From: an uncultured Oscillospiraceae bacterium
GTDB lineage: Bacteria; Bacillota; Clostridia; Oscillospirales; Oscillospiraceae
Assembly (NCBI GenBank): GCA_951801655.1
Contig: CATONV010000018.1
Location: forward strand, 1-38,606
Direction: 5' to 3'
DNA length: 38,606 nt
The translations under genes were made by a program, and so were the position numbers. Every line of letters starts with the position of its first letter. Positions within the stretch are counted from its first letter, which is position 1. The notes under the pieces are model-generated. The model was not told the origin of the DNA. It did not search any database and worked only from the letters and a program-made list of their open reading frames with translations. Positions 15,094 through 38,606 of this stretch are shown here, one piece after another.

Positions 15094-15303
15094 ATGAAAA
15101 TCTCAAGTTACAAAAACTATGATGACCTACCGCTGTTTCTCAATGCGGCAACCGTGGCGAAGGTGCTGGGTATTGCTCCATCCAGCAGCTACGAACTATT
15201 ACATGAGCCGGACTTCCCGGTTCTAAAAATCGGCAGCCGGATGGTAGTGCCGAAGGAGAAGTTCATGGAGTGGGTAGAGCGGCATACGGGAGAACAGCAA
15301 TGA
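15094..15303 (+). CDS. Excisionase-like small HTH protein
   Basis: A 69-residue protein started at ATG 15094, which follows AAAGGAGTGAGACAC; an upstream in-frame ATG at 15052 lies inside the hairpin and lacks a ribosome site. The sequence LFLNAATVAKVLGIAPSSSYELL, then FPVLKIGSRMVVPKEKFMEWV, is the winged-helix MerR/Xis pattern of excisionases and DNA-binding directionality factors. It would bend DNA at the element ends to steer the recombinases at 20465-23142 toward excision. Its stop overlaps the start of the next gene as ATGA. Confidence 0.75.
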   Translation: MKISSYKNYDDLPLFLNAATVAKVLGIAPSSSYELLHEPDFPVLKIGSRMVVPKEKFMEWVERHTGEQQ

Positions 15304-16046
15304 GGGGTGCGTGGTCAGCGGCAGCAGCGCCTCCCAATGAGTTCTGCTTGCCGCACGAAGTGTTCAAGCTCGGCCTGGGGCATGGGCCGCTGCCGGTGTA
15401 TCTCTACCTGATCTACTGCAAAAGTATGGGACACCGCGCGGACAAGATGAGCTGCACCATCATCAGCAAAGCTGTCGGTTGGTGCGAGAAAACAGTGCGG
15501 ACACACCTACGCGCATTGGATAATGCTGGGCTCGTTAAGCTGGAGCATTGTGGGCAAAGGTTCTCCTACGCCCTGTGTCCCATCCAAGCCAAGGTGCATA
15601 GGTGCTATGCGGTACCCCGTAACCGATGGATATCCACAAAGCGCGACTGGCTCACCGACGAGGTGTTTGACGCGGTGTTCCCCGTGCCAAATGAAGTATT
15701 CCAACTCGGTCTCAAGCCTGGTGAACTGCTGGTGTACATTTACCTGCACTACCAAAAGGGTGTGCGGAGCGGTCAGTGCTGGCCCAGCTATGCCACCATC
15801 GGCGCGTCGGTGGGCATGAGCCGGAAGACTGTCCAGAAGCACATCGGATCGCTGATAAACAAGAGGCTGATCCAAGCGGAGGAAACCATGATCCGCCGGA
15901 AGGATGGACGCCGCTGCAACGGCCGCCTGCGCTACACGGTCACGCCAATCCGCCAAGTGTTGAGGGTGCGGGAGAAGGAATTTTTGGAGCAGTTGAAACT
16001 TGCGGAAGCCCAGCGGAAGTGGGCCTCCACACAGCAACGGGCGTGA
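15300..16046 (+). CDS. Duplicated winged-helix protein, possible replication initiator/regulator
   Basis: A 248-residue protein whose ATG overlaps the excisionase stop; an in-frame ATG 30 bases earlier would lie within that gene. It contains two similar ~75-residue units. Unit one reads FCLPHEVFKLGLGHGPLPVY and later CEKTVRTHLRALDNAGLVKLE; unit two reads FPVPNEVFQLGLKPGELLVY and later SRKTVQKHIGSLINKRLIQAE. Each ends in a MarR/RepA-like winged helix, so this is an internal duplication. Homologous one-unit domains occur in replication-initiation and helix-turn-helix proteins of mobilizable elements. Translational coupling to the excisionase suggests replication or excision control; the exact role is not settled. 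Confidence 0.6.
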   Translation: MRGAWSAAAAPPNEFCLPHEVFKLGLGHGPLPVYLYLIYCKSMGHRADKMSCTIISKAVGWCEKTVRTHLRALDNAGLVKLEHCGQRFSYALCPIQAKVHRCYAVPRNRWISTKRDWLTDEVFDAVFPVPNEVFQLGLKPGELLVYIYLHYQKGVRSGQCWPSYATIGASVGMSRKTVQKHIGSLINKRLIQAEETMIRRKDGRRCNGRLRYTVTPIRQVLRVREKEFLEQLKLAEAQRKWASTQQRA

Positions 16047-16072
16047 CCGCCCCTGTTTCGCGTTTTGAAACC

Positions 16073-16165
16073 CCTTGTGCCCATCCTGTGCGCCGGGTGG
16101 CATCCGTGTACACCTCCCACCCTCTGAAACGCGGTGTCGGCCCCTGTGTGGCCCGTTGTGGGTAG
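16073..16165 (+). repeat. Dispersed ~90-bp noncoding repeat, copy 1
   Basis: A stretch containing TGCCCATCCTGTG, GGTGGCATCCGTGTACACCTC and AAACGCGGTGTCG recurs at about 19933-20020 with the same order and spacing. It lies directly after a gene end in both places. Its forward translation (CAHPxxxVASV, then KRGVxPxVxRC) is also shared, so it may be either a structured repeat or a decayed coding piece. Confidence 0.5.
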
Positions 16166-16190
16166 GCGGGCCATGTAGGGACCAAAAACG

Positions 16191-16220
16191 GAAATATTTA
16201 CCACGCCGTAATCAGTAAGG
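16191..16220 (+). repeat. Dispersed ~30-bp motif, copy 2
   Basis: GAAATATTTACCACGCCGTA continuing ATCAGTAAGG. It matches 23151-23180 at 28 of 30 positions. The two copies bracket the 7-kb block holding the relaxase and both recombinases. Confidence 0.65.
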
Positions 16221-16632
16221 GCCATCACGGCACAGGCCCGAAGGGCAGCCCAGCCGGGGCCCCGCCGCAACCCAGCCGTTAGGTGGCGAAGCCGCCCCAG
16301 GCCTAAGCGGGCCGGAGGCCCGCCCACGGCGAAGCGGTTGCGGTGGGGAGAGGAGGGGCAAGGGATCGCAGTGGGGAATGCCCGGAAGGGCGTTTCCCAC
16401 GGAGCGGACGTTGCCCCGATGACAAGCAGGATAAACGCTGGCGTCACAAGTGACGCCCGGCAGGTCACATCGGCCCGCAGTGCGGACCGTTTTCAAGGGC
16501 TTCCGGGGCTTCCCGCGGGGCTCTTGACAGGCGTCTGTTTTGGGCTGGAAATCGCCTAATGGCGTCTGATTTTCAAGAAAACCAGTTGCCTCAACGGTTT
16601 GAGGCGGCGTCTATCAAGAATTTGGAGGTATT
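16221..16632 (+). other. Probable oriT / transfer-origin region
   Basis: A 412-base GC-rich gene-free stretch directly ahead of the relaxosome genes. It contains a 13-bp hairpin at 16371-16400 (GTGGGGAATGCCC with its complement, two wobble pairs, GGAA loop) and a perfect 8-bp inverted repeat at 16440-16457 (GGCGTCAC, AA, GTGACGCC). Inverted repeats next to a nic site, located upstream of the accessory and relaxase genes, are the usual layout of oriT. The nic site itself cannot be named from sequence alone. Confidence 0.55.
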
Positions 16633-17061
16633 ATGAGTACAGAAAACAAGGATCGTCTGGCCCTACGCATGAAGCCGGATACCAGGCGAAAAATCGACCA
16701 ATGGTACACAGCGGCGGGCTGTGTCAGCCGGAACCAGTTCGTGGAGCGGGCCGTGAACTTCTACGTGGATCACCTGGCCGTCCAGGACGACAGCGGCACA
16801 CTGCCCAGGGCTGTCCTCTCGTCCCTGGACGGGCGGCTGGGGATGTTTGAGGACAGGCTCTCCTCCCTAATCTACAAGCATGCGGTAGAGCTGGACATGG
16901 TGATGGGCATCCTGGCGGACGCCTACGAATTCACTCCAGAGGATATCCGCCGTCGCCGGGCGGAGAGTGTCCACAACGTCAAAAGCACAAACGGACGGCT
17001 GCCTTTCGAAGAAAAGATCCGCAGGCCGGATGACGGCATGGAGTCCGAATGGCCCGGCTGA
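16633..17061 (+). CDS. Ribbon-helix-helix relaxosome accessory protein (MobC-like)
   Basis: A 142-residue protein preceded by TTTGGAGGTATT. The N-terminal ~55 residues (RLALRMKPDTRRKIDQWYTAAG, then CVSRNQFVERAVNFYVDHL) fit a ribbon-helix-helix DNA-binding domain with an adaptor helix, as in MobC/TraY-type proteins that bind oriT and help the relaxase open it. The C-terminal part is charged and variable. It overlaps the relaxase gene by 13 bases, so the two are translationally coupled, which is the main support for this role. Confidence 0.75.
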   Translation: MSTENKDRLALRMKPDTRRKIDQWYTAAGCVSRNQFVERAVNFYVDHLAVQDDSGTLPRAVLSSLDGRLGMFEDRLSSLIYKHAVELDMVMGILADAYEFTPEDIRRRRAESVHNVKSTNGRLPFEEKIRRPDDGMESEWPG

Positions 17062-18971
17062 TTTTGAAAAGCCCATTCATCAAGGGCGGCAAAAGCGCAA
17101 GCGGCCACGCCAAGTACATCGCTACCCGGGAACGGGTGGAGTTGGTGCCCGATGGCCGACCCGCCACACAAAAGCAAGAGCATTTGATTGCTGAACTGAC
17201 AAAAGATTTTCCTGACGCGAAAAAGCTGCCGGAGTACGGCAGCTATCGTGACGCACCTACCAAGGTCAATGCCTCGGTGTTCATCACCCGGACGCTGGAG
17301 GAGCACTGGTCTGACGTTCAGCAAAGCGATATCTACGCGGAGTATATTGCCACCCGTCCTCGAGTGGAGCGTGTGGGCAACCATGGCCTGTTCGGTGACG
17401 AGGACTATGTTGATTTGAAAAAAGTGACGGCAGAGCTGCAAAGCTGTGAGAAAAACGTGTGGACGCACATCATCTCGCTGAAACGAGAGGACGCCGCACG
17501 TCTGGGCTACGACAACGCCAGAACCTGGCGCAATCTAATCCGCACCCACCGCAACGACATCGCCGCCGCCATGAACATCCCGCCCAATGACTTCCGATGG
17601 TACGCCGCGTTCCACGATGAGGGCGACCATCCCCATGTCCACATGATGGCCTGGTCTGCCGGGGATGCGCCGGGGTATCTCAGCCCGGTAGGTATTGGGA
17701 AGATCAAGTCCAAGCTGACCAACGATATCTTCCATCAGGAGATGCTCCACGTCTACGAGCAGAAAGGCCAATCCCGGGATGAGCTGGTGGCAGAGGCCCG
17801 CCGCGCCATGCTGGAGCTGGCTGACGAAATGAAGCGGGGCGTCTGTGAACACCCGGAAGCGGAACAGATGTTGCTGACGCTGTCCTGTGAGCTGAAAAAT
17901 GCGAAAGGCAAAAAGCAGTATGGCTATCTCCCCCAGCGTATGAAAAAGCAGGTGGATGAAATTGTGGATCAGATGGCGCGGCTGTCCTCGGTAAAATCGT
18001 GCTATGAAAAGTGGCTGGAGCTTCAGCAGGAGATAAACGAGTTCTATTCAGGAAAACCAGTGGAGCGTGTGCCGCTGTCCCAACAGAAGGAGTTCCGCGC
18101 CATCCACAATGCTGTCGTCCAGGCGGCGCTCCGGCTGGAACACCTTACCTTTGAGGACAGGGATGTGGCGCGGCACGATGAGCCAGAAGATGTTCTCCGG
18201 GACAGCGAAACCTGCGGACAGCTCTGGGCGGCGGTCTGTGACGGCAGTCTCCCGCTGGATCTGCGTGATGAAGCGGTGACGCACCTCCAAACACAAGCGG
18301 AGGGCGGCGATCCCCATGCCCAGCTTCTCCTGGGCAGGCTGTACCGGGACGGCCCCCTGCTCACGCCGGATTCTGTGGAGGCGCGGTATTGGTTCGGGCA
18401 GGCGGTGCGGGAACTGCCGGACGCGCAGTACGCCCTGGGCAAATTGCTGCTGACCGATGATGTGGAAGTTTACGACCGGGAGCAGGGTATCCACTGGCTG
18501 ACACAGGCCGCTGAGAGCGGCCATGAGTTTGCCGCATACCGTCTGGCCAAAGAACTCTTGAAAGATGGCAATGTTGCGGAGGCCCTACCCTGGCTCACAG
18601 CGTCGGCAGAGGCGGGAAATCCCTACGCCGAATACCTGCTGGGCAAGCTCTATTGGGAGGGCGGGGACATCCCCCAGGACATGGAGCAGGCCCTCTACTG
18701 GCTGAGCCAGGCAGCAGCGCAAGGGCACGCCTATGCCCAGATCCTGCTGGCACGGCAGGACAGCCCGTCCCGACCCTCCGCCATCCTGGCGGTGAACAGT
18801 TTGCTCCATTCGATAGGGCAGATTTTCCGGGACAACGCCCAAGCCGTGAACGACACCCGTGACCATCACACCGACCGCAAGCTGCGGCGCAGAATCCAGG
18901 AGAAGAAAATCGCCATGGGTCATAAGCCGGACGATCACGAGGAGCAGGGCTGGGGTGGCATGACCATGTAA
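17049..18971 (+). CDS. MobP3-type relaxase with C-terminal Sel1 repeats
   Basis: A 640-residue DNA-nicking transfer protein. The N-terminal half carries the MobP3-like blocks: LILKSPFIKGGKSASGHAKY, YIATRPRVERVGNHGLFGDE, then WTHIISLKREDAARLGYDNA, and the metal-binding histidine motif FHDEGDHPHVHMMAWS at about residue 195. It would cut one strand at oriT, stay attached to the 5' end by a tyrosine and lead the strand into a recipient, using a conjugation apparatus from another element. From about residue 410 at least four Sel1-like (TPR-type) repeats follow (DPHAQLLLGRLYRDG; NPYAEYLLGKLYWEG; HAYAQILLARQ), a likely protein-docking module. No coupling protein or type IV secretion gene is present in the window, so the element is mobilizable, not self-transferring. 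Confidence 0.88.
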   Translation: MARLILKSPFIKGGKSASGHAKYIATRERVELVPDGRPATQKQEHLIAELTKDFPDAKKLPEYGSYRDAPTKVNASVFITRTLEEHWSDVQQSDIYAEYIATRPRVERVGNHGLFGDEDYVDLKKVTAELQSCEKNVWTHIISLKREDAARLGYDNARTWRNLIRTHRNDIAAAMNIPPNDFRWYAAFHDEGDHPHVHMMAWSAGDAPGYLSPVGIGKIKSKLTNDIFHQEMLHVYEQKGQSRDELVAEARRAMLELADEMKRGVCEHPEAEQMLLTLSCELKNAKGKKQYGYLPQRMKKQVDEIVDQMARLSSVKSCYEKWLELQQEINEFYSGKPVERVPLSQQKEFRAIHNAVVQAALRLEHLTFEDRDVARHDEPEDVLRDSETCGQLWAAVCDGSLPLDLRDEAVTHLQTQAEGGDPHAQLLLGRLYRDGPLLTPDSVEARYWFGQAVRELPDAQYALGKLLLTDDVEVYDREQGIHWLTQAAESGHEFAAYRLAKELLKDGNVAEALPWLTASAEAGNPYAEYLLGKLYWEGGDIPQDMEQALYWLSQAAAQGHAYAQILLARQDSPSRPSAILAVNSLLHSIGQIFRDNAQAVNDTRDHHTDRKLRRRIQEKKIAMGHKPDDHEEQGWGGMTM

Positions 18972-18978
18972 ACCCACG

Positions 18979-19008
18979 CAAAATTTGCTATGCCGTAAAC
19001 AAGGAAAG
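18979..19008 (+). repeat. Dispersed ~30-bp motif, copy 3 (divergent)
   Basis: GCAAAATTTGCTATGCCGTA continuing AACAAGGAAAGG, eight bases after the relaxase stop. It keeps the core ATTT-C-A-GCCGTAA of the other copies but is the most diverged. Confidence 0.4.
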
Positions 19009-19144
19009 GGTCTGCCTGGTCACTGTACAAAATGCTTCGTTTCCCCCCCTGTTTTTCTCCACGTTGCTGCTCTGATTGTTCTCGACTTCTGCTCGGTTCT
19101 TCGATATGGTGTTGCTTACCAAAAACCGAAAGGAGCGACACAGC

Positions 19145-19849
19145 ATGAACAGAAAACGGGAAGCAGTATTTATGGGGCTCGGCATCCTTGCCGGTCTCGC
19201 CCTGAGCGGTCCCGCCGCCCAGGCGGCGGATCATCTCACCGCCCGGCCCAGCAACCAGCCCATCTACGTGGACGGCCAGCGGATCAGCATGACTGCCTAC
19301 AACATCGGAGGAAACAACTACGTCCTCCTCCGGGACATCGGCAGGGCGGTGGACTTCGGCGTGATCTACAATGCCGCCACCAACTCCGTCTACATCGACA
19401 GCGCCCAGCCCTACCGGGAGGAACCCTCTGCCACACCGCTTTCTCCCACGGAAGAAAGTGTGCAGGCCACCCTGGCGCAACTGAAGCAAGCCTACCCCAC
19501 GGGCACAGTTTACGGCGAGTTTTATCGTCCCAATGATCCGCTCAACCGGCCATTCAGCAACTGCGACCACTGTGCGGGCTGGGCGATGCTCTGCTCCGAT
19601 GCCGCGTTCGGCGCCTTGCCCTGGAAGCGGATCGCCGACCCAGGCTGGGAGCAGATCCGCCCCGGCGACCTGATCCACTACGACAATAGTACCAGCGGTC
19701 ACGTAGTCGTGGTGGTGAAGAAAACAGACGAGTACATCAAAGTCACCGAGAGCGGGCTGAACAACAAAGCCCGCTGGGGCGGGCAGTACTTCAAGTGGTG
19801 GCTGGAGGAACAACCTGGGTATACGCTGTACACCCGCTACCCAGAATAG
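19145..19849 (+). CDS. Exported protein: copper-amine-oxidase-N-like domain plus Cys/His hydrolase domain
   Basis: A 234-residue protein started at ATG 19145 after GAAAGGAGCGACACAGC. A signal peptide ends at AAQAA. Residues 40-85 (IYVDGQRISMTAYNIGGNNY, VLLRDIGRAVDFGV, then VYIDS) match the small beta domain known as copper amine oxidase N-terminal/stalk domain, usual in wall-associated Firmicute proteins. The C-terminal half resembles NlpC/CHAP-like enzymes: SNCDHCAGWAM provides the likely Cys, GDLIHYDNSTSGHVVVVVKK the His. Such secreted amidases may open the wall during conjugation or modify the surface. It sits between relaxase and integrases, inside the element's core, which supports a transfer-linked role; that is inference. 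Confidence 0.7.
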   Translation: MNRKREAVFMGLGILAGLALSGPAAQAADHLTARPSNQPIYVDGQRISMTAYNIGGNNYVLLRDIGRAVDFGVIYNAATNSVYIDSAQPYREEPSATPLSPTEESVQATLAQLKQAYPTGTVYGEFYRPNDPLNRPFSNCDHCAGWAMLCSDAAFGALPWKRIADPGWEQIRPGDLIHYDNSTSGHVVVVVKKTDEYIKVTESGLNNKARWGGQYFKWWLEEQPGYTLYTRYPE

Positions 19850-19867
19850 AAATTCTGAGGTACAGGC

Positions 19868-19899
19868 GGGCGGCGCTCCGCATCCGCGGAGCGCCGCCC
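19868..19899. terminator. Perfect 14-bp GC hairpin
   Basis: GGGCGGCGCTCCGC at 19868-19881 and its exact complement at 19886-19899 flank an ATCC loop, 18 bases after the hydrolase stop. There is no T-run, so it may be a processing or stabilising hairpin rather than a classic terminator. Confidence 0.6.
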
Positions 19900-19932
19900 A
19901 CGTTGTTCCCCCGTGTCCGTCCCTGTGAAGCG

Positions 19933-20020
19933 CTTTGCGCCCATCCTGCGGGGCAAGTGGCATCCGTACACCTCACGCAAGTAAAGCGCGGTGTCGTCCC
20001 CTTTGTGCGCCGCTGTGCAG
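19933..20020 (+). repeat. Dispersed ~90-bp noncoding repeat, copy 2
   Basis: Partner of 16073-16165: GCGCCCATCCTGCG, AGTGGCATCCGTACACCTCA and AAGCGCGGTGTCGTCCCC occur in the same order. I see no gene in 19850-20165 apart from this and the hairpin before it. Confidence 0.5.
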
Positions 20021-20165
20021 GGACGTGGATTGCACCAGTGTCTTCAAAGAAAAGAGACATCAGCTCCAGCCAAAAAAGATATGTCTGAATTGATAATCTT
20101 TCCCGTTTGCCATGGCTATTCCCGCCAGCCTGTGGTATGGTGTGTCGCTACAGGAGGCGATACCA

Positions 20166-20462
20166 GTGAGAAAGACCTTGGAAGATCTCTACTACGGCAA
20201 TATCACACCCAACGCGCAGGACATGGCCCCCTATTCAGAACTGAAGCGGGCAACAGACCGCGTGACCCGCTTCGAAAACCAGCTCACGGAGCAGCTTGAC
20301 GGGGCCGGTCAAACGATTTTGGCCAAGCTCATTGAATCACAGCAGGAAATCGACAGCATCACCGCCATGGAAAACTTCATCCTGGGTTTCCGGCTGGGTG
20401 TCCGAATAATGGCCGAATGCATGGATAGCAATGATGGCGATATCAGAACTGGAGGTGAATAG
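20166..20462 (+). CDS. Small element-borne protein, DUF6809-like
   Basis: A 98-residue protein started at GTG 20166, 8 bases after AGGAGG; the in-frame ATG at 20112 has no ribosome site and would add an unrelated leader. The sequence KTLEDLYYGNITPNAQDM, then RVTRFENQLTEQLDG and AMENFILGFRLGVRIMAECM, matches small helical proteins found ahead of tyrosine integrases in Clostridial mobile elements, which I associate with DUF6809. It is predicted to be a helical bundle. The integrase starts three bases after its stop, so it is cotranscribed and may modulate recombination; no activity is known to me. Confidence 0.6.
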   Translation: MRKTLEDLYYGNITPNAQDMAPYSELKRATDRVTRFENQLTEQLDGAGQTILAKLIESQQEIDSITAMENFILGFRLGVRIMAECMDSNDGDIRTGGE

Positions 20463-20464
20463 TC

Positions 20465-21676
20465 ATGGCAAAGCGCCGACCATCTGGCGACGGCATGGTA
20501 CGCAAACGGGAGGATGGCCGCTGGGAGGGGCGGATCGTAGTAGGGCACAAGGAAGGCGGAGATCCCATCTTCCAGTACGTCCTCGCACCCACGCAGAAAG
20601 CCCTTCTCGCCAAGCTTCACCAAAATATTGAGATCTTCCGGGATGTGGAGCTATGCGGGGACAGCCGCATGACGCTGGCACAGTGGCTGGGTCGTTGGCT
20701 GGACGAGTACGCCGCCCTGCGTCTGCGGGAGAGCACGATGAGCGGTTATCGTGTGTATGCCGAACAATACATCAAGCCCCATCTGGGGGACAAGAAAATG
20801 AACTCGATCACTCCAGCAGATATTCAGCGAATGTACACAAAGCTGAAAAAGGAGGGGCGCGTCCGTGAGCATCCCAAGTATGGCCGTGCCCTGTCCGTTG
20901 GCACCGTCCGGCGCATCCACACCATGCTCCACCGGGCGATGGCGGACGCGGTTCGCGCCCATATCATCCCACGCAACCCCACCGAGGGGTTGACGCTGCC
21001 GAGAGCAGACAGTCCGGCCAAACGTGTCCTCACAGACCGGGAACTGAACAAATTCATGGAGGTCATCAAGGCTGACCCCATCTGGCACGATTTCTTCTAC
21101 ACAGAACTCACCACCGGCCTGCGCCGGGGAGAAATTTGCGGGCTCCAGTGGCAGGATTTTGAGGCCGGGGCGGGGACGCTGCAAATCAACCGAACCCTAC
21201 ATAGAAAAGCGAACGGTGGATTTGAGACGGGCGAAACGAAAACCGGGCGGGGGAAACGCAAGATTTTGCTGCCGGACAGTACCGCGAACCTGCTGCGGGA
21301 GCGTCAGAAAACGATCCTCGGCAAGTGGATCTTCCCCAACCCATTCAAGCCGGAGCAACCCATCTCTCCTGATGCGGCATACCGACGATTAAAGGCCCTG
21401 CTGTGCGAGGCCGGGATCATGGCGAACATTCCGTTCCATGGATTGAGACACACGTTCGCCACCCATGCCTTAGCCAGTGGTGTGGACGCGAAAACGCTGT
21501 CCGGCATCCTGGGCCACACCGACGCCGCGTTCACGCTGAACACCTACACCCACGTCACCGGCGATATGCAGCGGCAGGCATCGGCTATTGTGGGTGGCTT
21601 TATGGAGGACATTTTCGGAAAGGAGCTGAAACCTTGGCAAAACGCAGAAAACGGGGGGACGGAAGCGTCCACTTGA
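20465..21676 (+). CDS. Tyrosine recombinase/integrase 1
   Basis: A 403-residue integrase with GGAGGTGAATAGTC before the ATG. An N-terminal arm-binding beta domain (GDGMVRKREDGRWEGRIVVG) is followed by a SAM-like core-binding domain (TLAQWLGRWLDEYAALRLRES) and the catalytic domain: TTGLRRGEICGLQW carries the first Arg, HGLRHTFATHAL the His-x-x-Arg, LGHTDAAFTLNTYTHV the second His and the nucleophilic Tyr. All key residues are present, so it should be active. It overlaps integrase 2 by 43 bases. Two adjacent integrases with similar N-termini suggest an ancestral duplication. It probably drives integration and excision of the element together with the Xis-like protein at 15094. Confidence 0.92.
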   Translation: MAKRRPSGDGMVRKREDGRWEGRIVVGHKEGGDPIFQYVLAPTQKALLAKLHQNIEIFRDVELCGDSRMTLAQWLGRWLDEYAALRLRESTMSGYRVYAEQYIKPHLGDKKMNSITPADIQRMYTKLKKEGRVREHPKYGRALSVGTVRRIHTMLHRAMADAVRAHIIPRNPTEGLTLPRADSPAKRVLTDRELNKFMEVIKADPIWHDFFYTELTTGLRRGEICGLQWQDFEAGAGTLQINRTLHRKANGGFETGETKTGRGKRKILLPDSTANLLRERQKTILGKWIFPNPFKPEQPISPDAAYRRLKALLCEAGIMANIPFHGLRHTFATHALASGVDAKTLSGILGHTDAAFTLNTYTHVTGDMQRQASAIVGGFMEDIFGKELKPWQNAENGGTEAST

Positions 21677-23142
21677 GAAAGGATGGCCGCTGGGAAGGCC
21701 GGGTGGTAGTGGGCTACGATGACAAGGGCTTGCCCATCACAAAAAACGTGCTGGCAAAGACAAAAACAGCGTGTTTAGACAAGCTGAAACTGCTGAAGGA
21801 ATCCTGCGATGAGAAACCCAACGAAAATCTGCGCCCGGATATGACCTTCGGCGAGTGGCTGGATTTTTGGTATCAGAACTACTCCAAACCCAAGCTCCGG
21901 CCCACTACCCAGGCGGGGTACGAAAACGCCATCTACAAGCACATCATCCCCGCACTTGGGAAAACCCTGCTACCCGAATTGAGTACAAATGATCTCCAGC
22001 AATTTTATGCAACGTTGAAAAAGGAAGGGCGTTTGATCTGCACAGAATCCTACGGCAAAGGGGTTTCGGATCGCACCGTGTGGTCTTGCCACACCCGGAT
22101 CAGAACGGCGCTGGATCGTGCGGTGCAGGATGGCCTCATCCGAATCAACCCCGCCGCCGACTGCAAGCTGCCGCCCCAAAACCCGAAAGAAATGCAGCTT
22201 TTATCCCGAGAGGAAATGCAGAGATTTTTGATCCAGGCAAGGGAAGAAGGATACTATGAATTGTTTCTTCTGGAGCTTGCCACGGGCCTGCGCCGGGGCG
22301 AGGTGCTGGCCCTCCAATGGGACGATCTGGACATCGAAACTGGGGTGCTTTGCATCCAACGCCAGGTCTACCGGGCCAGCGGTGAGCTGGTGGTGTCCGC
22401 GCCCAAGACGAAAGCCGCCCTGCGTACCATCATCCTGCCCCCAACCCTGCTGGGAGTGCTGGAAGAATACCACCAACAGGCGGAGTCCCGCTGGATGTTC
22501 CCTTCCCCGGCAAAGGAGGACTCGCCCCTCGACCCCGCCACTGTTCGGAAACGCCTCCAGACCATCCTGGAACACGCTGGATGTAAAAGGGTTCGCTTCC
22601 ACGACCTGCGCCACCTGTTTGTGACCACCGCGCTGGAAAACGGGATGGATGTGAAAACCCTGTCCGCCATTACCGGGCACGTTTCCGCCAAGACCACGCT
22701 GAACGTCTACACCCACGTTACTGACACCATGCGGCAGACAGCGGCGGCGAAAATCGATCGGGGAATCGGCAAATGTGAGCCGCCGGATGACCCCGGCGAG
22801 GATTTACCCACCAAAACGTCCAAGCCACCCTCAAAGGCGCCGTTTGAGCCCTACAAAGGCAAAATTCGCAAACCGGGGACAGGCTGTGTGACGCAAATCA
22901 ACGACCATCTCTGGGAAGGAAAATTCTCCCCCAAGTGGCCTGATGGGAAAATCCACTCCCGCAGTATCTACGCCGGCACCGAGACCGAATGTGAGGAAAA
23001 GCTGGCTGGGCTGATCCGGCAGATGAAAATGGAGGTTGCGGAGGCAAAGCGTCTGGCCGCTGAGGGAAAGTGGGAAGCAGCCATGACGCTGGCCACACAG
23101 AAGAAAGCGAGAGGAACAAGAAAAACAGAACTCCTTACGTAA
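21634..23142 (+). CDS. Tyrosine recombinase/integrase 2 with a second, C-terminal arm-binding-like domain
   Basis: A 502-residue integrase. The start is TTG 21634 with AAGGAGCTGAAACC ahead of it, which makes the N-terminus (AKRRKRGDGSVHLRKDGRWE) line up with that of integrase 1; the frame is open further upstream inside integrase 1 but has no such site. Catalytic blocks are complete: ATGLRRGEVLALQWDDL, HDLRHLFVTTALENG, ITGHVSAKTTLNVYTHV. After the catalytic domain come about 100 extra residues in which GTGCVTQINDHLWEGKFSPK, and then a Thr-Glu-rich helix, mirror the N-terminal arm-binding unit. An integrase with arm-binding domains at both ends is unusual. Overlap with integrase 1 implies coupled translation and likely joint action. 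Confidence 0.9.
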   Translation: MAKRRKRGDGSVHLRKDGRWEGRVVVGYDDKGLPITKNVLAKTKTACLDKLKLLKESCDEKPNENLRPDMTFGEWLDFWYQNYSKPKLRPTTQAGYENAIYKHIIPALGKTLLPELSTNDLQQFYATLKKEGRLICTESYGKGVSDRTVWSCHTRIRTALDRAVQDGLIRINPAADCKLPPQNPKEMQLLSREEMQRFLIQAREEGYYELFLLELATGLRRGEVLALQWDDLDIETGVLCIQRQVYRASGELVVSAPKTKAALRTIILPPTLLGVLEEYHQQAESRWMFPSPAKEDSPLDPATVRKRLQTILEHAGCKRVRFHDLRHLFVTTALENGMDVKTLSAITGHVSAKTTLNVYTHVTDTMRQTAAAKIDRGIGKCEPPDDPGEDLPTKTSKPPSKAPFEPYKGKIRKPGTGCVTQINDHLWEGKFSPKWPDGKIHSRSIYAGTETECEEKLAGLIRQMKMEVAEAKRLAAEGKWEAAMTLATQKKARGTRKTELLT

Positions 23143-32243: not shown

Positions 32244-34568
32244 TTATTCCTTTGGCGGGACAGAATCCTCTGATATAATATAGATAGCGATGATTTTTGT
32301 TCCTTCCTGATTCAGCGCGACCACAATAATGTATCCTTTCTCATGATCCAATTTTTCTGCGGGAAGGACATCAAAAAAACCGTTACCAAAATGATATACA
32401 GGTGTGTTGGTCGAAGCAGCACCAACAAATTCACTGGTTCCGTTCTGCGTTACCATTAGAAGCCCCTGGTCATAATTGATTGAACAGTCCCGATAAATGC
32501 CATCTCTGGGCCCTCCCGGGACACCTCTAAATAAGAGGCCGGATTGCTTGGACACCTTAATCATTTTTTTGCCCTGCCACACGTAGAACCCAGTACCCAT
32601 ATTTAAATCCTGGTACTCAATGTCATCTTCTTTTCCGTTCTCAATCGTTTTATATGTTATAATGTCATCAAGGCACATGAAGTCCCCAGTAAGAAATGTA
32701 TACCTGTTCATTCCTGGATAAACGGTCCACCAGTCATCTGGATCAGTATGTAGCAAGTCGACATCTGGATTATTTTCCCTTGCGGAGGAATCCTCCTCAT
32801 TAGGAGATACACGGTCAATAATCACGCCAGTAATGAACGCTGAAATATCCAGGAGAAGTGCTACAATGAGAGAAAATAGGGCAATATGCCAATATGGACT
32901 TGTGAGGTATATAATGCCCTCTTGAGCAGCGTTGTGATCGCTAAGGTACAGGCGAATTGCCTCATCCAGATTTTGAGTAGATGCCGCTCTGTCATAGGCG
33001 CTCAATTCAGCTGAGCTGAGCGCATTCTCACCATTATCCGTCAATATATAAACGGGCAATCCCCCGATTCTGGCTTTCAAGTTGTTAAATTCATGCACCC
33101 ACGCTTGCTTCCAGTTAGTATCAGATGCTTCCCCATTTCCCACCAAATTATTGCCGTCATTCTGTAGATTTGGGGAAGAACTTGGATTATCCTGAGGGGG
33201 AGTAGACGGAGCTTCACTCACATCAGGCGTGTCTGCCGGATTTTCTTCTGCCGCTGGAGATTCGCTTTCTGGGGACGAATCCCCATCCGCAGGTTCGGTA
33301 GACGGCTCGGTTACAGGTTTCGCAGATGGCGCTGGTGCAGTTTCAACCCCTAACGCAAGAATGGTTCCGTCAGATAACTGGTGGATGGTGTCTTTTAGCG
33401 CTGAACTCGTTTCCTTGATAGAACGATAATTTTCAATATCTTGGATAAAGCTATTCATGGATGAAAGGAAATTATGATATGCAGATTCTGTATCCTCGCT
33501 TGCGCCCAAATCAACGCCGCTTTGGAGGCGATCAAATATTTCCGTAGCAAGATCCCTCATCCGATCCAAATCCGGGTTTGTCTGAAACAGCTCTTTTTGA
33601 ATCTCACGTAGATTCTCCCCCACGAAATAGGTGTTCACGCCGTCTTCAGTCATACCCAGGATAAGCATATAATAGGATACCCTCTGCTCAGCCCTCTCAT
33701 AATCGTCCCTTTGCTGGCCCAACTCGTTCTGCCTGGATATTGCCCTGTTATAATTTTGGGCGGCAGTATTCACCGCGTCAAGGAGCATTGTGGTGTCCAC
33801 ATTATCTGACGCATTTTCCAATCGCCTTTGTGCACTCTGCAAACTCGCTTCGGTTGTTGTCACTTCGGAGCTGGCACGCTGTAACTGTGTATCAATTCGG
33901 TCTAATTCACTTTGTAAGCTTGCCTGAATCCCCGTGAGTGCCGATGATGCCTGTTCTCTCACATTTTGAGTTGCATCTTTAGCCATTGCGCTTGAAGCAG
34001 CATCAATAGCCGTACTCAGCAAATCTCTTGCAGCTGACCCGTTAGCGTTTGCTCGCTCATCATCCCAATTGATTTGCTGATTCACAGTTACCTTATTTTG
34101 CTCCATTTTTGATGCTTGATCATATAACGCGATGATTTGATCCGCCAATTCATTTTCGAGTTGTGTTCCATAGCGTTCTGCATATGTATCTGCTCTGAAA
34201 AGTTCATCACGGTAAATGGATTGGGCCAGAATACGACATTCGGTGTCCCACGATTTCCCATATGCCTGCCCCGCAATATACAGATAGCTGAACCAAGACG
34301 AGCAAAACAGCAGCACCAACGTCATACTTAGTAATATTCCCTTCTTCCACCAACCTTTAGATTTTTCTAAAAATTTAGGTAGGGCAAAATTTAATCCCAG
34401 CAGAAGCCCCTGAATCCCCAAAGAAGCCGCATACGCCTGCCAGCTTTTAGGAAATGTGTACTCTATCATACCCTGTGCGGTAGACCAGAAAGAGACCGCC
34501 GCTAAAAGGATCGTACAAACACGAAGCATGGTGATAATTCCGCTCATTTGACGTTTATTATTTCCCAT
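32244..34568 (-). CDS. Large membrane protein with extracellular coiled-coil and cytoplasmic tail domain, unknown function
   Basis: A 774-residue protein started at ATG 34568, one base after the upstream gene's stop; an in-frame extension to 34658 lies inside that gene. Three N-terminal membrane helices (about residues 12-34, 50-70, 78-102) are followed by ~440 residues predicted outside the cell: an Ala/Gln/Glu-rich coiled coil (IQASLQSELDRIDTQLQRAS), then a Pro/Ser/Glu linker (SPESESPAAEENPADTPDVS). A fourth helix (IALFSLIVALLLDISAFITG) returns it to the cytoplasm, ending in a ~190-residue beta-rich domain (GMNRYTFLTGDFMCLDDIIT). I do not recognise the family. The layout suggests a sensor or scaffold reaching into the wall. 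Cotranscribed with the gene at 34570. Confidence 0.75.
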   Translation of the reverse strand: MGNNKRQMSGIITMLRVCTILLAAVSFWSTAQGMIEYTFPKSWQAYAASLGIQGLLLGLNFALPKFLEKSKGWWKKGILLSMTLVLLFCSSWFSYLYIAGQAYGKSWDTECRILAQSIYRDELFRADTYAERYGTQLENELADQIIALYDQASKMEQNKVTVNQQINWDDERANANGSAARDLLSTAIDAASSAMAKDATQNVREQASSALTGIQASLQSELDRIDTQLQRASSEVTTTEASLQSAQRRLENASDNVDTTMLLDAVNTAAQNYNRAISRQNELGQQRDDYERAEQRVSYYMLILGMTEDGVNTYFVGENLREIQKELFQTNPDLDRMRDLATEIFDRLQSGVDLGASEDTESAYHNFLSSMNSFIQDIENYRSIKETSSALKDTIHQLSDGTILALGVETAPAPSAKPVTEPSTEPADGDSSPESESPAAEENPADTPDVSEAPSTPPQDNPSSSPNLQNDGNNLVGNGEASDTNWKQAWVHEFNNLKARIGGLPVYILTDNGENALSSAELSAYDRAASTQNLDEAIRLYLSDHNAAQEGIIYLTSPYWHIALFSLIVALLLDISAFITGVIIDRVSPNEEDSSARENNPDVDLLHTDPDDWWTVYPGMNRYTFLTGDFMCLDDIITYKTIENGKEDDIEYQDLNMGTGFYVWQGKKMIKVSKQSGLLFRGVPGGPRDGIYRDCSINYDQGLLMVTQNGTSEFVGAASTNTPVYHFGNGFFDVLPAEKLDHEKGYIIVVALNQEGTKIIAIYIISEDSVPPKE

Positions 34569-34569
34569 C

Positions 34570-36009
34570 TTATTTGCGCCTCCTCCATGTACGAGTTCTC
34601 CAGAATTTCCGGAACCCTCCATTTGGATTTCTGGAACCACCGTTCGGATTATCTGCAATATCGTCTAGTTCCTTAAAAACCAGCTTATTCAAAATTGAAT
34701 CAATACGCTTCTGCAACTTCTCGTTCTGTTCGGGAAATACCAGATAGAACAGGGAAGATATGAGTGACTGAATTCGGAATTTTGTAACGACACTCAAAAT
34801 GAAGTCGGCAAAGAATTCAAGCGTTACAACAAAGATCAATCGGAGCAGCTTGTTCAAAAGGGAATCCGGCAGCAAGCACTGCGCCAGTGTAAGCCTTACC
34901 AGTTCAACGGCAGTCAGGCACACCAGAATAAACATAATGACCATAAACAGGGTCATCCAAATATTGGTGATCCCATCAAACAGATCTACTCCCCCGAGTA
35001 TCAATGCCAGCATCATGCCTGCTACGATAAGGATCGCGGCAGGTGCGCCGTATTTATCTGACAATGCGGCTCCTATTGAGTTTTTCCGTTGAGGATTGTG
35101 CGCAAAAATTCTGGAGAGGATGGAAAAAACGCCGCCCACTACGCATATAGCAAGGAAATACAGTATGGCATAGTAAAACAAGGCGTCCATTGGAGTTTTA
35201 ATTCTGTTTCCAAGCAGAGATTTCATCAGTTCCTGGACATTTTCCATCCAAGGTCTACCGCCAGGGAGTTGGAATTGGAAAACGGGGAACAGGAAGAAAA
35301 GCACAATTATGGCAACCAAAACAAGCGCTTTTACAACATTCCACACCCAATTGGGAGTATTTGAAATGAATCTTCGAATCCTTGCCCATACAGTTTGGGA
35401 TTCGTTATAGTTTTTGCGTTGCTTTTGACGTATATGCTCTTCTTTAGCAGTCTGAATCTCTATTTTGTGCGTATACCGCTGCTCCGCCGATTCTGCTTGA
35501 TGTGTGTGCTTTTGTTCAGACAAATCTACCCGATGGTTTTGTTTTGCGATTGATTGCCGCGCCCACGTTTCTTTTTTCTCCATCCGCAGGCGCCGAGATA
35601 TTCCTTTAGCGTTTTCCCAATCCTCTTGCGTCCAACGGAACAGCCGTATCAGTATCACGAGAAAGGCAGCAATAGAAACAAGCAGAGCAATTAACCACGC
35701 TTTTGCCCACATGGGCAGTCCCATCAGCGTAATCATTTCGCTGCCGTCCATCTGAACATTGATGTATGAGGCCAGGGCGCAAATAATCATCGAAGATGCG
35801 AAAAAGTAAGCTTTGCGCCTATTTATGTATTCAATAAAGCCAACCGCTAATTCTAGCAGGGCAAAAGGGATGCAGAGGATGTTTACAACAGTGAGGCTCA
35901 ATGCAGAAAAGATGCCCAAGGCATATATACCCACCAGAAGAACAGCCAGAATGCAGGGAAGTAAGCACAAAAACAACGTGAGTGTATTTCTATTCCTTGA
36001 TGTCTCCAC
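34570..36009 (-). CDS. Polytopic membrane protein with internal coiled coil, unknown function
   Basis: A 479-residue protein with about nine membrane helices: four in residues 9-125, then a charged segment about 135-215 rich in Gln/Lys/Glu/His (QSIAKQNHRVDLSEQKHTHQ) likely forming a cytoplasmic coiled coil, then five more helices in 222-415 (ALVLVAIIVLFFLFPVFQF; AAILIVAGMMLALILGGVDL). The C-terminus is basic and repeats NPNGGSR/NPNGGFR. No transporter or enzyme motif is evident. It is first of a two-gene minus-strand operon, and the gene at 32244 starts one base after its stop, implying a complex. It diverges from the double-HTH regulator across 310 bases. Confidence 0.75.
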   Translation of the reverse strand: METSRNRNTLTLFLCLLPCILAVLLVGIYALGIFSALSLTVVNILCIPFALLELAVGFIEYINRRKAYFFASSMIICALASYINVQMDGSEMITLMGLPMWAKAWLIALLVSIAAFLVILIRLFRWTQEDWENAKGISRRLRMEKKETWARQSIAKQNHRVDLSEQKHTHQAESAEQRYTHKIEIQTAKEEHIRQKQRKNYNESQTVWARIRRFISNTPNWVWNVVKALVLVAIIVLFFLFPVFQFQLPGGRPWMENVQELMKSLLGNRIKTPMDALFYYAILYFLAICVVGGVFSILSRIFAHNPQRKNSIGAALSDKYGAPAAILIVAGMMLALILGGVDLFDGITNIWMTLFMVIMFILVCLTAVELVRLTLAQCLLPDSLLNKLLRLIFVVTLEFFADFILSVVTKFRIQSLISSLFYLVFPEQNEKLQKRIDSILNKLVFKELDDIADNPNGGSRNPNGGFRKFWRTRTWRRRK

Positions 36010-36319
36010 TACCTAACACCTCTTTGCTCATTAAACTATACCAGGAAATGGACGGCAAGTTGACTCATGGAACCCAAAGAAAGATAGTATGATGGGCCTG
36101 CCACGACGGAGGTACCTTATGCGTGCAAAAAAGCTGTTTTGCTCCGAATAAACAGGATCACTACGTGCGGATTCATACACCGAATAAGCAATGGCAAAAC
36201 AGGTTCGTTGATTTTTGCAACACTTATTCAAAAAGATTTTCAAATTTTCTTCCAAAGCACATTAAATTATGATACAATAAATTTAGTTTATATGTTTCAA
36301 AATAAGGGGGTGTATAACT
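36010..36319. promoter_or_regulatory. Divergent regulatory region
   Basis: This gene-free gap separates the membrane operon from the regulator. AT-rich sequence at about 36240-36300 includes TACAAT and TATATG boxes suitable for the regulator's promoter, and AAGGGGG lies 9 bases before its ATG. No strong palindrome stands out, so an operator cannot be assigned. Confidence 0.4.
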
Positions 36320-38167
36320 ATGCCACTGACCCAAACGATCCCCAAAACACAAATTGACCGCATCGGCCAGTATATTGGACAGGTGCGCGTCTATAAAGGT
36401 ATTTCCCTGGAACTTCTCTCCAAGGGCCTGTGCACTCCGGCTTACCTCTGCCGGGTAGAAAGCGGAAGACGAGAGGCGGACAAGCTTCTGACTGACGCGC
36501 TCCTACAACGGCTGGGATCCCCGACAGAACTCTTTTGGCGACTTCTAGATCAAGATGAATTTCAGCAATGGCAGCGGCGTCAAGACATCCTAACCTATCT
36601 GCGCCGGGGTGATATCACCTCGGCGCAGACAGGCATTGCCGCATATCGAGCAAAAACCCCGTTGGAGCGGCAGTTCCTTCAAACAACGGAAATCAACCTC
36701 CGAGCCCTACGGGGCGCGCGGGCGGCAGAACTACGTGACCGGACGCTGTCGGTCCTCCAGCTGACCCAGCCAGCTTTTGAAAAATGCGAGATAGAAGAAC
36801 TGGTTCTAAGTCAAGCCGAGGGCTATTTATTACTGGCATATTTGGAACAAGAGGAACGGCTAAACGGCCCAGATGCTGTGGAAAATTCCTACCGCGCATT
36901 GCTGCGACTGCTGCGGCGGAGCTATTACGATACGCGGGAGCGGGTATATCTTTTCCCCTACGTCGCCTGTCATATGATAGAAATCGAATATCGGAGGGGG
37001 CAGTTGTTCTCGGCCCTATCCCTTTGTGAGGATACTCTGGCAGAATTGTCTAGCGAGGGGAGGCTGTACGCCTATGAGTCCCTTTTGGCGTGGAAGATAC
37101 GCCTGCTGGATGCGTCCGGAATGGATGCCAGCGCCCCCCGGAAACTGTTGGAATGGCTGCGAGTTCTCCGGCCCAGTTGTCCAAAGCATCCACAGATGCT
37201 GATCCCATTCGTCGAGCGTGGCTGTGTTTGCTGTTTGAACCAGGTCATCCGGGATCGGCGCGAGCTTCTGGGCCTGTCCCAAGAAGAGTTGGCTGCCGGT
37301 GTCTGCGATATCAGCACTCTGTCCCGAATTGAAACCTGGAAAAGCACACCACAAAAGCGGGTGCGCCGTCTTCTCTTACAAAAGCTCCATATGTCCGGCG
37401 AACGGTACGACTCTGAGATTATCCCCGAGCGGCATGATGACTACATTCTGCGCAGCGAAATTGACCGGGCTCACGACCTCGGTGAATATGACCGGGAAGC
37501 TCGTTTGCTTGCCGGCCTGCGGCGGCGTATCTGCCATACTGACACCAATCTGCAATTCTTGGAACAGCGTGACAGCCGGCTTTTGGCGCTCGGCACCGGC
37601 AAAGCCGATCCCCCAATCACTCCGTCGGAAGAGCTTGCCATGTTGAAGGTTTCCCTGCGCCGGACGCTTCCCCTCCGTGTTGAAAAGATCCACACATGGC
37701 CTGTCAGCTCCCTATCTATCAACGAGGTTTTGCTCCTACTGAACATTTCCCTCCGCTTCAAGGAAGAAGGACAGCCGCAAATTGCTCTCTCCATTGCGCA
37801 GTATGTTCTGGAATGCTTAAATCACATGAATTTGGGCAACGTCTGCTGCAACGAAGAGCTTAATACCCTGGCTTGCCTAAATGTTCTCAGGTACCTGGGT
37901 GATTGCGGCCGCTATGACGAGTCTAATCACTTGGCATGGGTGTGTGTATCTCAAGAGTCGCAAAGAAACCGTATCGTACAAACAGCAAAAATTCTATATA
38001 ATATTGCTTGGAACCTGGAACACCAGCATGATATAAGCCAGCAGCATCTATCCTATTCGTTCCAATTAGCCTATGCTGCTGCGCTGTTGGAGGCAGATCA
38101 AGTAGGACAGAAGCATATCCAAAAGCATTACTTGGAATTATTTGGGAAAGAACTGCAGTTGATCTAA
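36320..38167 (+). CDS. Regulator with two XRE-type HTH domains and TPR-like helical repeats
   Basis: A 615-residue protein. An XRE helix-turn-helix lies at residues 12-66 (GQVRVYKGISLELLSKGLCT, then PAYLCRVESGRRE). About 240 residues of paired helices of the TPR type follow. A second XRE domain begins near residue 309 (RRELLGLSQEELAAGVCDIS, then LSRIETWKSTP), and a second helical stretch runs to the end. Single-HTH plus TPR is the RRNPP plan (Rgg, PlcR, PrgX), in which an imported peptide binds the repeats and alters DNA binding. The internal duplication is unusual. A secreted-peptide-like ORF ends one base from its stop on the other strand, which fits a peptide receptor. Likely targets: that ORF and the divergent membrane operon. 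Confidence 0.75.
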   Translation: MPLTQTIPKTQIDRIGQYIGQVRVYKGISLELLSKGLCTPAYLCRVESGRREADKLLTDALLQRLGSPTELFWRLLDQDEFQQWQRRQDILTYLRRGDITSAQTGIAAYRAKTPLERQFLQTTEINLRALRGARAAELRDRTLSVLQLTQPAFEKCEIEELVLSQAEGYLLLAYLEQEERLNGPDAVENSYRALLRLLRRSYYDTRERVYLFPYVACHMIEIEYRRGQLFSALSLCEDTLAELSSEGRLYAYESLLAWKIRLLDASGMDASAPRKLLEWLRVLRPSCPKHPQMLIPFVERGCVCCLNQVIRDRRELLGLSQEELAAGVCDISTLSRIETWKSTPQKRVRRLLLQKLHMSGERYDSEIIPERHDDYILRSEIDRAHDLGEYDREARLLAGLRRRICHTDTNLQFLEQRDSRLLALGTGKADPPITPSEELAMLKVSLRRTLPLRVEKIHTWPVSSLSINEVLLLLNISLRFKEEGQPQIALSIAQYVLECLNHMNLGNVCCNEELNTLACLNVLRYLGDCGRYDESNHLAWVCVSQESQRNRIVQTAKILYNIAWNLEHQHDISQQHLSYSFQLAYAAALLEADQVGQKHIQKHYLELFGKELQLI

Positions 38168-38168
38168 T

Positions 38169-38327
38169 TTATTTCTCAGTGCTGCTATTACCCCAGTCAT
38201 CCCCACAGACAGAAATTCCCGGATCCTCATCTGGTGGAGTCCCTTCGCCGGCGGGAGGCATGGGGATGGGCGTCAAGATGGAAAGGGCCAATGCAAGGCT
38301 GAGTATTTGCGCTACGAATTTTTTCAT
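38169..38327 (-). CDS. 52-residue signal-peptide-bearing small protein, candidate pheromone precursor
   Basis: On the minus strand AAAGGAGAAATCAAA precedes an ATG at 38327 that opens a 52-codon ORF ending at TAA 38169. It begins MKKFVAQILSLALALSILTP, a classic signal sequence, followed by a short Pro-rich part (IPMPPAGEGTPPDEDP) and an acidic tail GISVCGDDWGNSSTEK with a single Cys. The gene is tail-to-tail with the double-HTH/TPR regulator, one base apart, and has its own promoter-like box. Size, export signal and position match precursor peptides of RRNPP systems. It might instead be an unrelated secreted microprotein; the mature form is unknown. Confidence 0.65.
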   Translation of the reverse strand: MKKFVAQILSLALALSILTPIPMPPAGEGTPPDEDPGISVCGDDWGNSSTEK

Positions 38328-38372
38328 TTTGATTTCTCCTTTACACAAACATATACTTACTTAATTTGAGGT

Positions 38373-38401
38373 ATTATAATGCCATTCGGCATAAAGCGCC
38401 A
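38373..38401 (-). promoter_or_regulatory. Putative promoter of the small secreted peptide
   Basis: On the minus strand a perfect TATAAT (38373-38378) lies 46 bases before the ATG. The -35 position 17 bases upstream reads TGGCGC, a poor match, and overlaps the end of the palindrome at 38399-38441. A weak -35 touching a palindrome suggests activator or repressor control. Confidence 0.5.
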
Positions 38402-38441
38402 TGGCAAAGCTGGAAAAAATTTTTTGCCAGCTTTGCCATGG
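38399..38441. promoter_or_regulatory. Long palindrome upstream of the peptide gene
   Basis: CCATGGCAAAGCTGG and its exact complement flank AAAAAATTTTTT plus one bulged G, so nearly all 43 bases pair. It could be an operator for a dimeric HTH protein such as the neighbouring regulator, or a terminator for an upstream gene, since TATTTTTATT follows on the plus strand. Confidence 0.6.
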
Positions 38442-38606
38442 TATTTTTATTCGTTCACAAATAAAATATTTATGTTTAGATCTTCTTTAATTTTGACAAA
38501 AGCGGCTAACACTTTTGCATATTGAATGCCGACGGCCCACATCTTGTGCCGGAAAGCCGCACCTTGTGCAAAGGCGCTTGCGCGGGGCGGAAAACCGCCC
38601 CATAAT
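38442..38606. other. Gene-free window end with small hairpin
   Basis: No gene is visible. GGGGCGG/CCGCCCC around AAAA at 38584-38601 forms a hairpin near the cut edge, preceded by two CACATCTTGTGC/CGCACCTTGTGC-like half repeats. The sequence is cut off before any function can be read. Confidence 0.35.

Follow-up and report, generated by a model that had tools for sequence, protein, structure and literature searches.

The window, the whole stretch of DNA analysed here (38,606 nucleotides, from an uncultured Oscillospiraceae bacterium), carries near its end a large regulator gene, a small convergent ORF and a long palindrome lying between opposed -10 boxes. The regulator ORF (615 aa, + strand, 36320..38167) encodes two HTH-TPR modules in one chain, as seen from profile matches, AlphaFold2 modelling and Foldseek. 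The first HTH (residues ~13-66; 36356..36517) is followed by a TPR-like helical module (residues ~67-296; 36518..37207), and the second HTH (residues ~306-357; 37235..37390) by a second TPR-like helical module (residues ~358-615; 37391..38164), all on the same strand.

Pfam reports the second HTH alone in this protein (HTH_3, residues 310-344, E 1.7e-8) and gives no report for the first. The first HTH is recognised by a profile match, by its alignment to the second HTH region (E 3e-4, from one comparison), and by the helices at residues 30-34, 40-47 and 55-64, which are present in both the whole-protein and the N-module models. In a comparison with a profile built from single-module relatives, the first module, which is absent from that profile, scores 74 bits, and the second module, itself 1 of the profile's 16 rows, scores 289 bits. 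The AlphaFold2 model of the whole receptor, computed from an input of 10 sequences, has a pLDDT of 81.6 and a pTM of 0.81, and PlcR ranks first when this model is submitted to Foldseek. The N-module modelled alone reaches a pLDDT of 87.8, with PlcR again as the top Foldseek match (3u3w, E 1.5e-6); its VIA Z value of 14.8 is level with those of unrelated TPR proteins. The profiles of both modules match PlcR over almost its full length, and that of the N-module (the window being 1 of its 15 rows) covers positions 11-286. The match of the N-module profile to Rgg2 is confined to positions 13-115, the HTH part. On these comparisons of sequence and modelled fold, the window protein is best described as a head-to-tail fusion of two PlcR-like HTH-TPR receptors. 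The sequence-only reading had seen two HTH domains and helical repeats in the 615-residue protein and had proposed kinship with the RRNPP receptors; both points are borne out, and the repeats are now assigned to two PlcR-type modules.

The small ORF (52 aa, 38169..38327, - strand) is convergent with the receptor gene, and a single base (38168) separates the two stop codons. It is preceded by the ribosome site AAAGGAG (38336..38342, - strand), read directly from the sequence 8 nt before the ATG. The N-terminus of the encoded peptide combines positive charge with a hydrophobic stretch and is thus signal-like by a simple hydropathy rule, as distinct from a SignalP call; the tail past the hydrophobic stretch contains seven acidic residues and one lysine. 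Hereafter, we call this ORF, which recurs in relatives, the propeptide gene.

Upstream of the propeptide gene lies a 43-nt palindrome (38399..38441), the likely operator, whose arms begin CCATGGCAAAGCTGG. The 21-nt arms are 95% complementary and are separated by 1 nt. The half-site CCATGNCNNNNNNGGAAAA occurs exactly at 38399-38417 and with one mismatch at 38423-38441. In a half-site search of the source genome, the palindrome was found at one place, together with one half-site, at 3 mismatches, on another contig (C64). Rfam gave no match across positions 36000-38606.

The palindrome is flanked by two outward-facing -10 boxes, each 42.0 nt from its centre. The near-side box, TATAAT (38373..38378, - strand), would belong to the propeptide promoter, while the mirror box on the far side, TAAAAT (38462..38467, + strand), marks a possible divergent promoter that runs towards the contig end. 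At the 17-nt spacing, the near-side -35 position reads TGGCGC, which agrees with TTGACA at 3 of 6 letters and overlaps the palindrome edge by 3 nt, and the far-side position reads TGGTAT. Any divergent target gene in the window would lie past the contig end. The small ORF with its ribosome site, signal-like start and one-base distance from the regulator stop, the near-perfect 43-base palindrome, and the TATAAT box whose -35 position overlaps it had all been claimed from the letters alone, and all were found as described, the signal by the hydropathy rule.

Other genes of the window can be outlined briefly. Two overlapping ORFs (32244-36009, - strand) are divergent from the receptor gene; one has a weak, sub-threshold match to Tmpp129, and the other encodes 804 aa with no family match. 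Farther away, region 15270-23142 contains mobile-element genes, namely an HTH_36 replication-like protein and a MobL relaxase with Sel1 repeats, as well as two adjoining phage-type integrases of identical domain make-up.

The convergent ORF beside relatives of the receptor

Does the convergent ORF recur beside relatives of the receptor? The first receptor set (loci L001-L153) comprised 151 ORFs, 119 of them distinct. After the removal of duplicates, locus L003, ORFs open at the 3' end, matches with E >1e-30, matches that did not reach profile position 270, and ORFs with <150 nt downstream, 93 receptors were left: 78 last-or-single receptors, the window's among them, and 15 first-of-tandem receptors. 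Since near-identical strains were retained, the counts refer to ORFs, not to independent events. Under a strict rule (an ATG, an SD, a signal-like start, and a stop near the receptor stop), a convergent ORF was found at 36 of the 78 last-or-single receptors, as compared to 0 of the 15 first-of-tandem receptors and 3 of 262 other genes of the same loci. The mean in shuffled sequences was 0.24 of 78. Relaxing the limits while still demanding an SD added few ORFs. Some of the misses lacked only a recognised SD, and a looser rule was therefore adopted. It raised the count to 48 of 78, against 0 of 15 and 11 of 262, respectively. These 48 are made up of 8 of the 11 fused (double) receptors and 40 of the 67 single or second-of-tandem ones. 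The doubles L034, L130 and L133 and 27 of the 67 singles or second-of-tandem receptors lack a convergent ORF by this rule.

The looser rule was set after the first set had been viewed, and the clean test is therefore the second set alone. A profile built from ten doubles found matches in 41 of the 348 genomes available for one family; three candidates were scored per genome, so that copies per genome are lower bounds. The resulting 50 loci yielded 51 receptor ORFs absent from the first set. Among them were 39 ORFs of at least 540 aa, 36 of these being 590-720 aa long, from 23 genomes, five of which contributed three each. With the rule unchanged, a convergent ORF was found at 25 of the 39 doubles, 3 of the 8 singles and 0 of the 4 first-of-tandem receptors. 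Two of the 14 doubles without an ORF by the rule (L194 and L179) likely have one outside it, and most of the others show no convergent ORF. Orphan receptors thus exist. The sequence-only reading had proposed to test whether a convergent signal-peptide ORF lies beside the regulator's homologues each time: the association is well above the control level, but it is not universal.

The nearest relative of the window receptor, L162, deserves a comment. Its ORF at -3 resembles the window propeptide by eye, with a KKFV start and a GTPP-PG stretch. This ORF has the 4-nt stop overlap seen in most relatives, and no ATG, GTG or TTG precedes KKFV. The second-set count scores L162 by an ORF at -46, which is probably the wrong one; the ORF at -3 is the better candidate.

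The coding character of these ORFs was assessed in 11 related propeptide pairs, several of which share a member and none of which includes the window propeptide. The dN/dS ratio, obtained for 9 pairs, is ~0.19-0.30 in eight and ~0.55 in L104/L105, and the third codon position is the most changed in every pair compared. These values indicate that the reading frame is conserved in related pairs, and so the loss of frame that would have spoken against the sequence-only reading was not observed in these pairs. The tails themselves are highly variable among relatives. A shared pheromone core, [IVLM][ST]x[CY], is striking by eye, and its counts are weak: it occurs in 2 of 8 first-set doubles, 7 of 25 second-set doubles, 4 of 14 tandem and 5 of 29 single loci, and 100, 1, 7 and 16 of 1000 shuffles, respectively, reach at least the observed count. 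We do not claim it.

We favour the reading in which the receptor senses a peptide derived from its own convergent ORF. In an alternative that we consider unlikely, the secreted peptide would be an effector, such as a bacteriocin-like or matrix peptide, under the control of a receptor that senses something else. The strong variation of the tails would suit such a product, and so would the gene surroundings: of 44 loci no shorter than 5 kb, 11 contain a radical SAM relative and 14 an ABC exporter relative; the matches of the radical SAM relatives to NCBIfam maturases are all below the curated cut-offs. In addition, when ORFs on the far side of the palindrome were chosen by a mechanical rule in 66 loci, 15 of the 52 obtained had a signal-like start; the L036 radical SAM gene is also among these 52. 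Against the effector reading, the ORF tracks the receptor stop, with a 4-nt stop overlap in 28 of the 48 first-set cases, both modules are homologous to a peptide-binding receptor, and 15 of the 29 loci with a convergent ORF in the radical SAM/ABC survey have neither relative. In the window, neither a radical SAM nor an ABC exporter domain was reported in the 12 other proteins scanned.

Two further arrangements were noticed among the loci. In L074 (1653-2894 and 4-1529, - strand), L036 (3472-4869, + strand) and similar loci, radical SAM and exporter-type ABC proteins stand beside single or tandem receptors; the radical SAM proteins match Pfam above the cut-off, and maturase names appear only below the NCBIfam cut-offs. 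It is possible that these loci are peptide natural-product clusters under pheromone control. In L137, L138, L141 and L142 (Gottfriedia/Bacillus), receptors of 425 aa are accompanied by a near-identical 50-aa signal-peptide ORF, which runs in the same direction and overlaps the receptor stop; this is another receptor-propeptide layout.

The palindrome and its putative flanking promoters

Palindromes with a score of at least 13 lie upstream of the propeptide genes in 19 of 47 first-set and 16 of 27 second-set regions, while 0 were obtained in each of 6 shuffles for both sets; of the control downstream regions compared with the first set, 7 of 120 contained one. Half of the upstream regions (37 of 74, both sets) have no palindrome scoring at least 12.5. 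Across 155 loci, exact matches to CCATGNCNNNNNNGGAAAA coincide with the operator sites of the window, of L005, L110, L112, L114 and L127 and of duplicate loci, and one lies elsewhere, in L117. The half-site was written after the loci had been compared, with the window in view, and therefore the chance figure (a mean of 0.33 matches) serves as a guide only.

The -10 boxes were surveyed 36-50 nt from the centres of 37 palindromes scoring at least 12.5, the window included, from the 74 regions of both sets. A box is present on the near side in 25, on the far side in 26 and on both sides in 20 of the 37, as compared to 0.148 per side around random nearby centres, a null that took in coding DNA and may therefore underestimate the chance rate in AT-rich promoter sequence. 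A fairer null is given by mispairing: 10 of 21 palindromes have a -10 box at a distance of 38-47 nt from the centre, as against a mean of 3.0 and a maximum of 8 in 500 mispaired trials. In 17 of the 20 palindromes with both boxes, the two distances to the centre differ by at most 1 base. The near-side -35 positions are weak, with a mean of 3.0 of 6 matches as compared to 2.6 at random positions (n=25). A palindrome between two outward -10 boxes is placed as the operator of a divergent promoter would be, and the comparison across loci supports the idea that it behaves like an operator in many of them.

Six of the 37 palindromes (L014, L086, L123, L129, L167 and L191) have no -10 box on either side; in the first tree, L123 and L129 stand close to the window protein. 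The palindromes of L123 and L129, likewise upstream of the propeptide, begin CAAGGGACAGAA, unlike the CCATG type, and have no -10 box at the usual distance.

Could the palindrome instead be the transcription terminator of the regulator mRNA? This mRNA would then extend across the propeptide gene in antisense, and the -10 boxes would be there by chance. The + strand RNA of 38385-38465 has a folding energy of -34.1 kcal/mol (z -6.1), with TATTTTTATT after it, and 7 of the 120 control downstream regions likewise contain a palindrome of this kind. However, the terminator scan did not list the palindrome, its half-site letters recur in the palindromes of other loci, and -10 boxes flank it symmetrically. 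We therefore regard a terminator with chance boxes as quite improbable; the palindrome may serve as both operator and terminator.

Distribution and history of the fusion

At E 1e-5, the whole receptor matched its own genome only, among 60 genomes that included 36 others of the same genus. Plasmids searched at E 0.01 yielded no match, single-protein scans of genome contigs and viral contigs found no relative of the window receptor, and the L034 protein had no match in viral contigs. At wider range the receptor family is sparse: matches were obtained in 19 of 394 genomes of the order at E 1e-12 and in 6 of 391 genomes of the class at E 1e-30, the source genome being counted in these figures. The relatives include Faecalibacterium and Lachnospiraceae, and gut bacteria are among those in which the layout is found again. 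All nine doubles with a named record belong to the Lachnospiraceae, Roseburia inulinivorans among them, and the second-set genomes presumably do as well. L162, the nearest receptor, is 39% identical in the N-module and 36% in the C-module. A fused receptor (L034, MT837868.1) and a tandem pair (L036, MT837634.1) are found in two unverified records that are labelled as bacteriophage from human faeces. The GC content of the receptor gene, 0.53, is close to the window mean, two genes being at 0.65 and six others measured at 0.37-0.52; this value says little, and hence horizontal gain is not claimed.

A quick tree of 137 modules was built, in which support is given by SH-aLRT with no bootstraps, 38 of 54 singles were left out and many end branches are long. 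In this tree, 42 of the 47 fused N-modules cluster with 9 of the 14 first-of-tandem genes (SH-aLRT 99), and 42 of the 47 fused C-modules cluster with 7 of the 13 second-of-tandem genes and one single (SH-aLRT 92), or with three more singles when the cluster is widened (SH-aLRT 90). Most of the fusions and many of the tandem pairs thus appear to descend from one old duplication. The positions of L109/L120, L202/L203 and L184 outside the main clusters suggest further fusions.

Unfused tandem receptor pairs are common among the relatives, several of them with short overlaps, as they would be if the fused protein were an accident of assembly or annotation that had joined tandem genes, and the small ORF a chance antisense ORF, but this very improbable reading is largely refuted by the recurrence of fused ORFs (11 in the first set and the 36 of 590-720 aa in the second), by the shared sister of the N- and C-modules of the window (L162, with supports of 99 and 97), and by the scarcity of convergent ORFs beside the control genes under both the strict and the looser rule.

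A putative circuit and its known counterparts

We propose that the locus encodes an RRNPPA-type (PlcR-like) signalling circuit, in which two complete modules are fused to form the receptor. Judged from the sequence features, namely the two PlcR-homologous modules, the convergent propeptide ORF, the palindrome between opposed -10 boxes, and the recurrence of this set in many relatives, the circuit is probably real, and we put its probability at roughly 0.7. First, the propeptide would leave the cell by Sec and would be cut down to a short fragment of its acidic tail. Then, the mature peptide would return through an oligopeptide importer; the source genome has three SBP_bac_5 genes, encoding importer-type binding proteins, which makes re-entry feasible without going further. 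The returned peptide would bind one or both TPR modules. Finally, the fused receptor, probably as a dimer with four HTHs, would bind the palindrome. As there is no good -35 element on either side of the window palindrome, the receptor would act mainly as an activator of both promoters, closing a positive loop on the propeptide and firing the divergent target gene.

More tentatively, at somewhat less than even odds, we suggest that the fused proteins form a Clostridia receptor class with two covalently joined peptide-sensing, DNA-binding modules. One chain would read two signals or one signal twice, the dimer would grip four half-sites in a palindrome of ~40-70 nt, and the pheromone gene and a target operon would be fired in opposite directions. 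Some genomes, with at least three fused receptors, would then possess several private channels. To our knowledge, little is known of peptide signalling in these families. If the circuit works as proposed, the receptor, the pheromone precursor and the switch can all be read from each locus, so that synthetic peptides could be used to test dozens of channels directly. The symmetric operator would provide a simple readout, and the fusion raises the question of how two peptide sensors in one chain share their labour. Considering the radical SAM gene in 11 of the 44 larger loci, some of the peptides may unlock silent clusters for peptide natural products.

Among the known systems, PlcR-PapR of the Bacillus cereus group is similar in its HTH and TPR-like peptide receptor and its small adjoining propeptide. 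It differs in that the PlcR chains in the PDB consist of one module (264-293 residues) and the window receptor of two fused ones, with a convergent propeptide; papR lies downstream of plcR in the same direction. TprA of the pneumococcal TprA/PhrA system is likewise a single receptor module. The window agrees with the RRNPPA (PlcR-like) members in having an HTH followed by TPR-like repeats homologous to theirs, and a propeptide gene directly adjacent, at 1 nt.

TprA/PhrA resembles the window in that the genes of the regulator and of the small peptide occupy opposite strands, as is described for tprA2 and phrA2, with ABC transporters and a lanthipeptide-type cluster close by (PMC5436883). For the RRNPPA core, five TPRs are given, to which an HTH and four further TPRs may be added, and the accessible part of that description mentions no two-HTH form (PMC12700828). 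Candidates of RRNPP_Detector have a small exported propeptide directly adjoining a TPR receptor, often with an HTH, and the tool, as far as the available portion of its paper states, keeps receptors of 250-500 aa (PMC10075063). Fusions of 590-720 aa fall outside this range, as does the 615-aa window receptor, while each of its modules alone would fit. The literature searched, a scope that excludes most subscription papers and supplements, contained no two-receptor (two-HTH) RRNPP fusion.

The Rgg/SHP group III systems of streptococci share the convergent layout: in the accessible text on them, the SHP genes overlap the receptor 3' end convergently (PMC13361665). The window differs from them in several respects. 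Rgg is a single receptor, whereas the window has two in one chain, stops that are 1 nt apart, a signal-like leader and an acidic tail, and its match to Rgg2 extends over the HTH part only. Because Rgg group III is already convergent, the tail-to-tail layout by itself is not new and does not define a distinct class. The distinct class put forward in the sequence-only reading is therefore upheld in one of its two parts: the layout has a precedent in Rgg group III (PMC13361665), and the novelty lies in the joining of two receptors.
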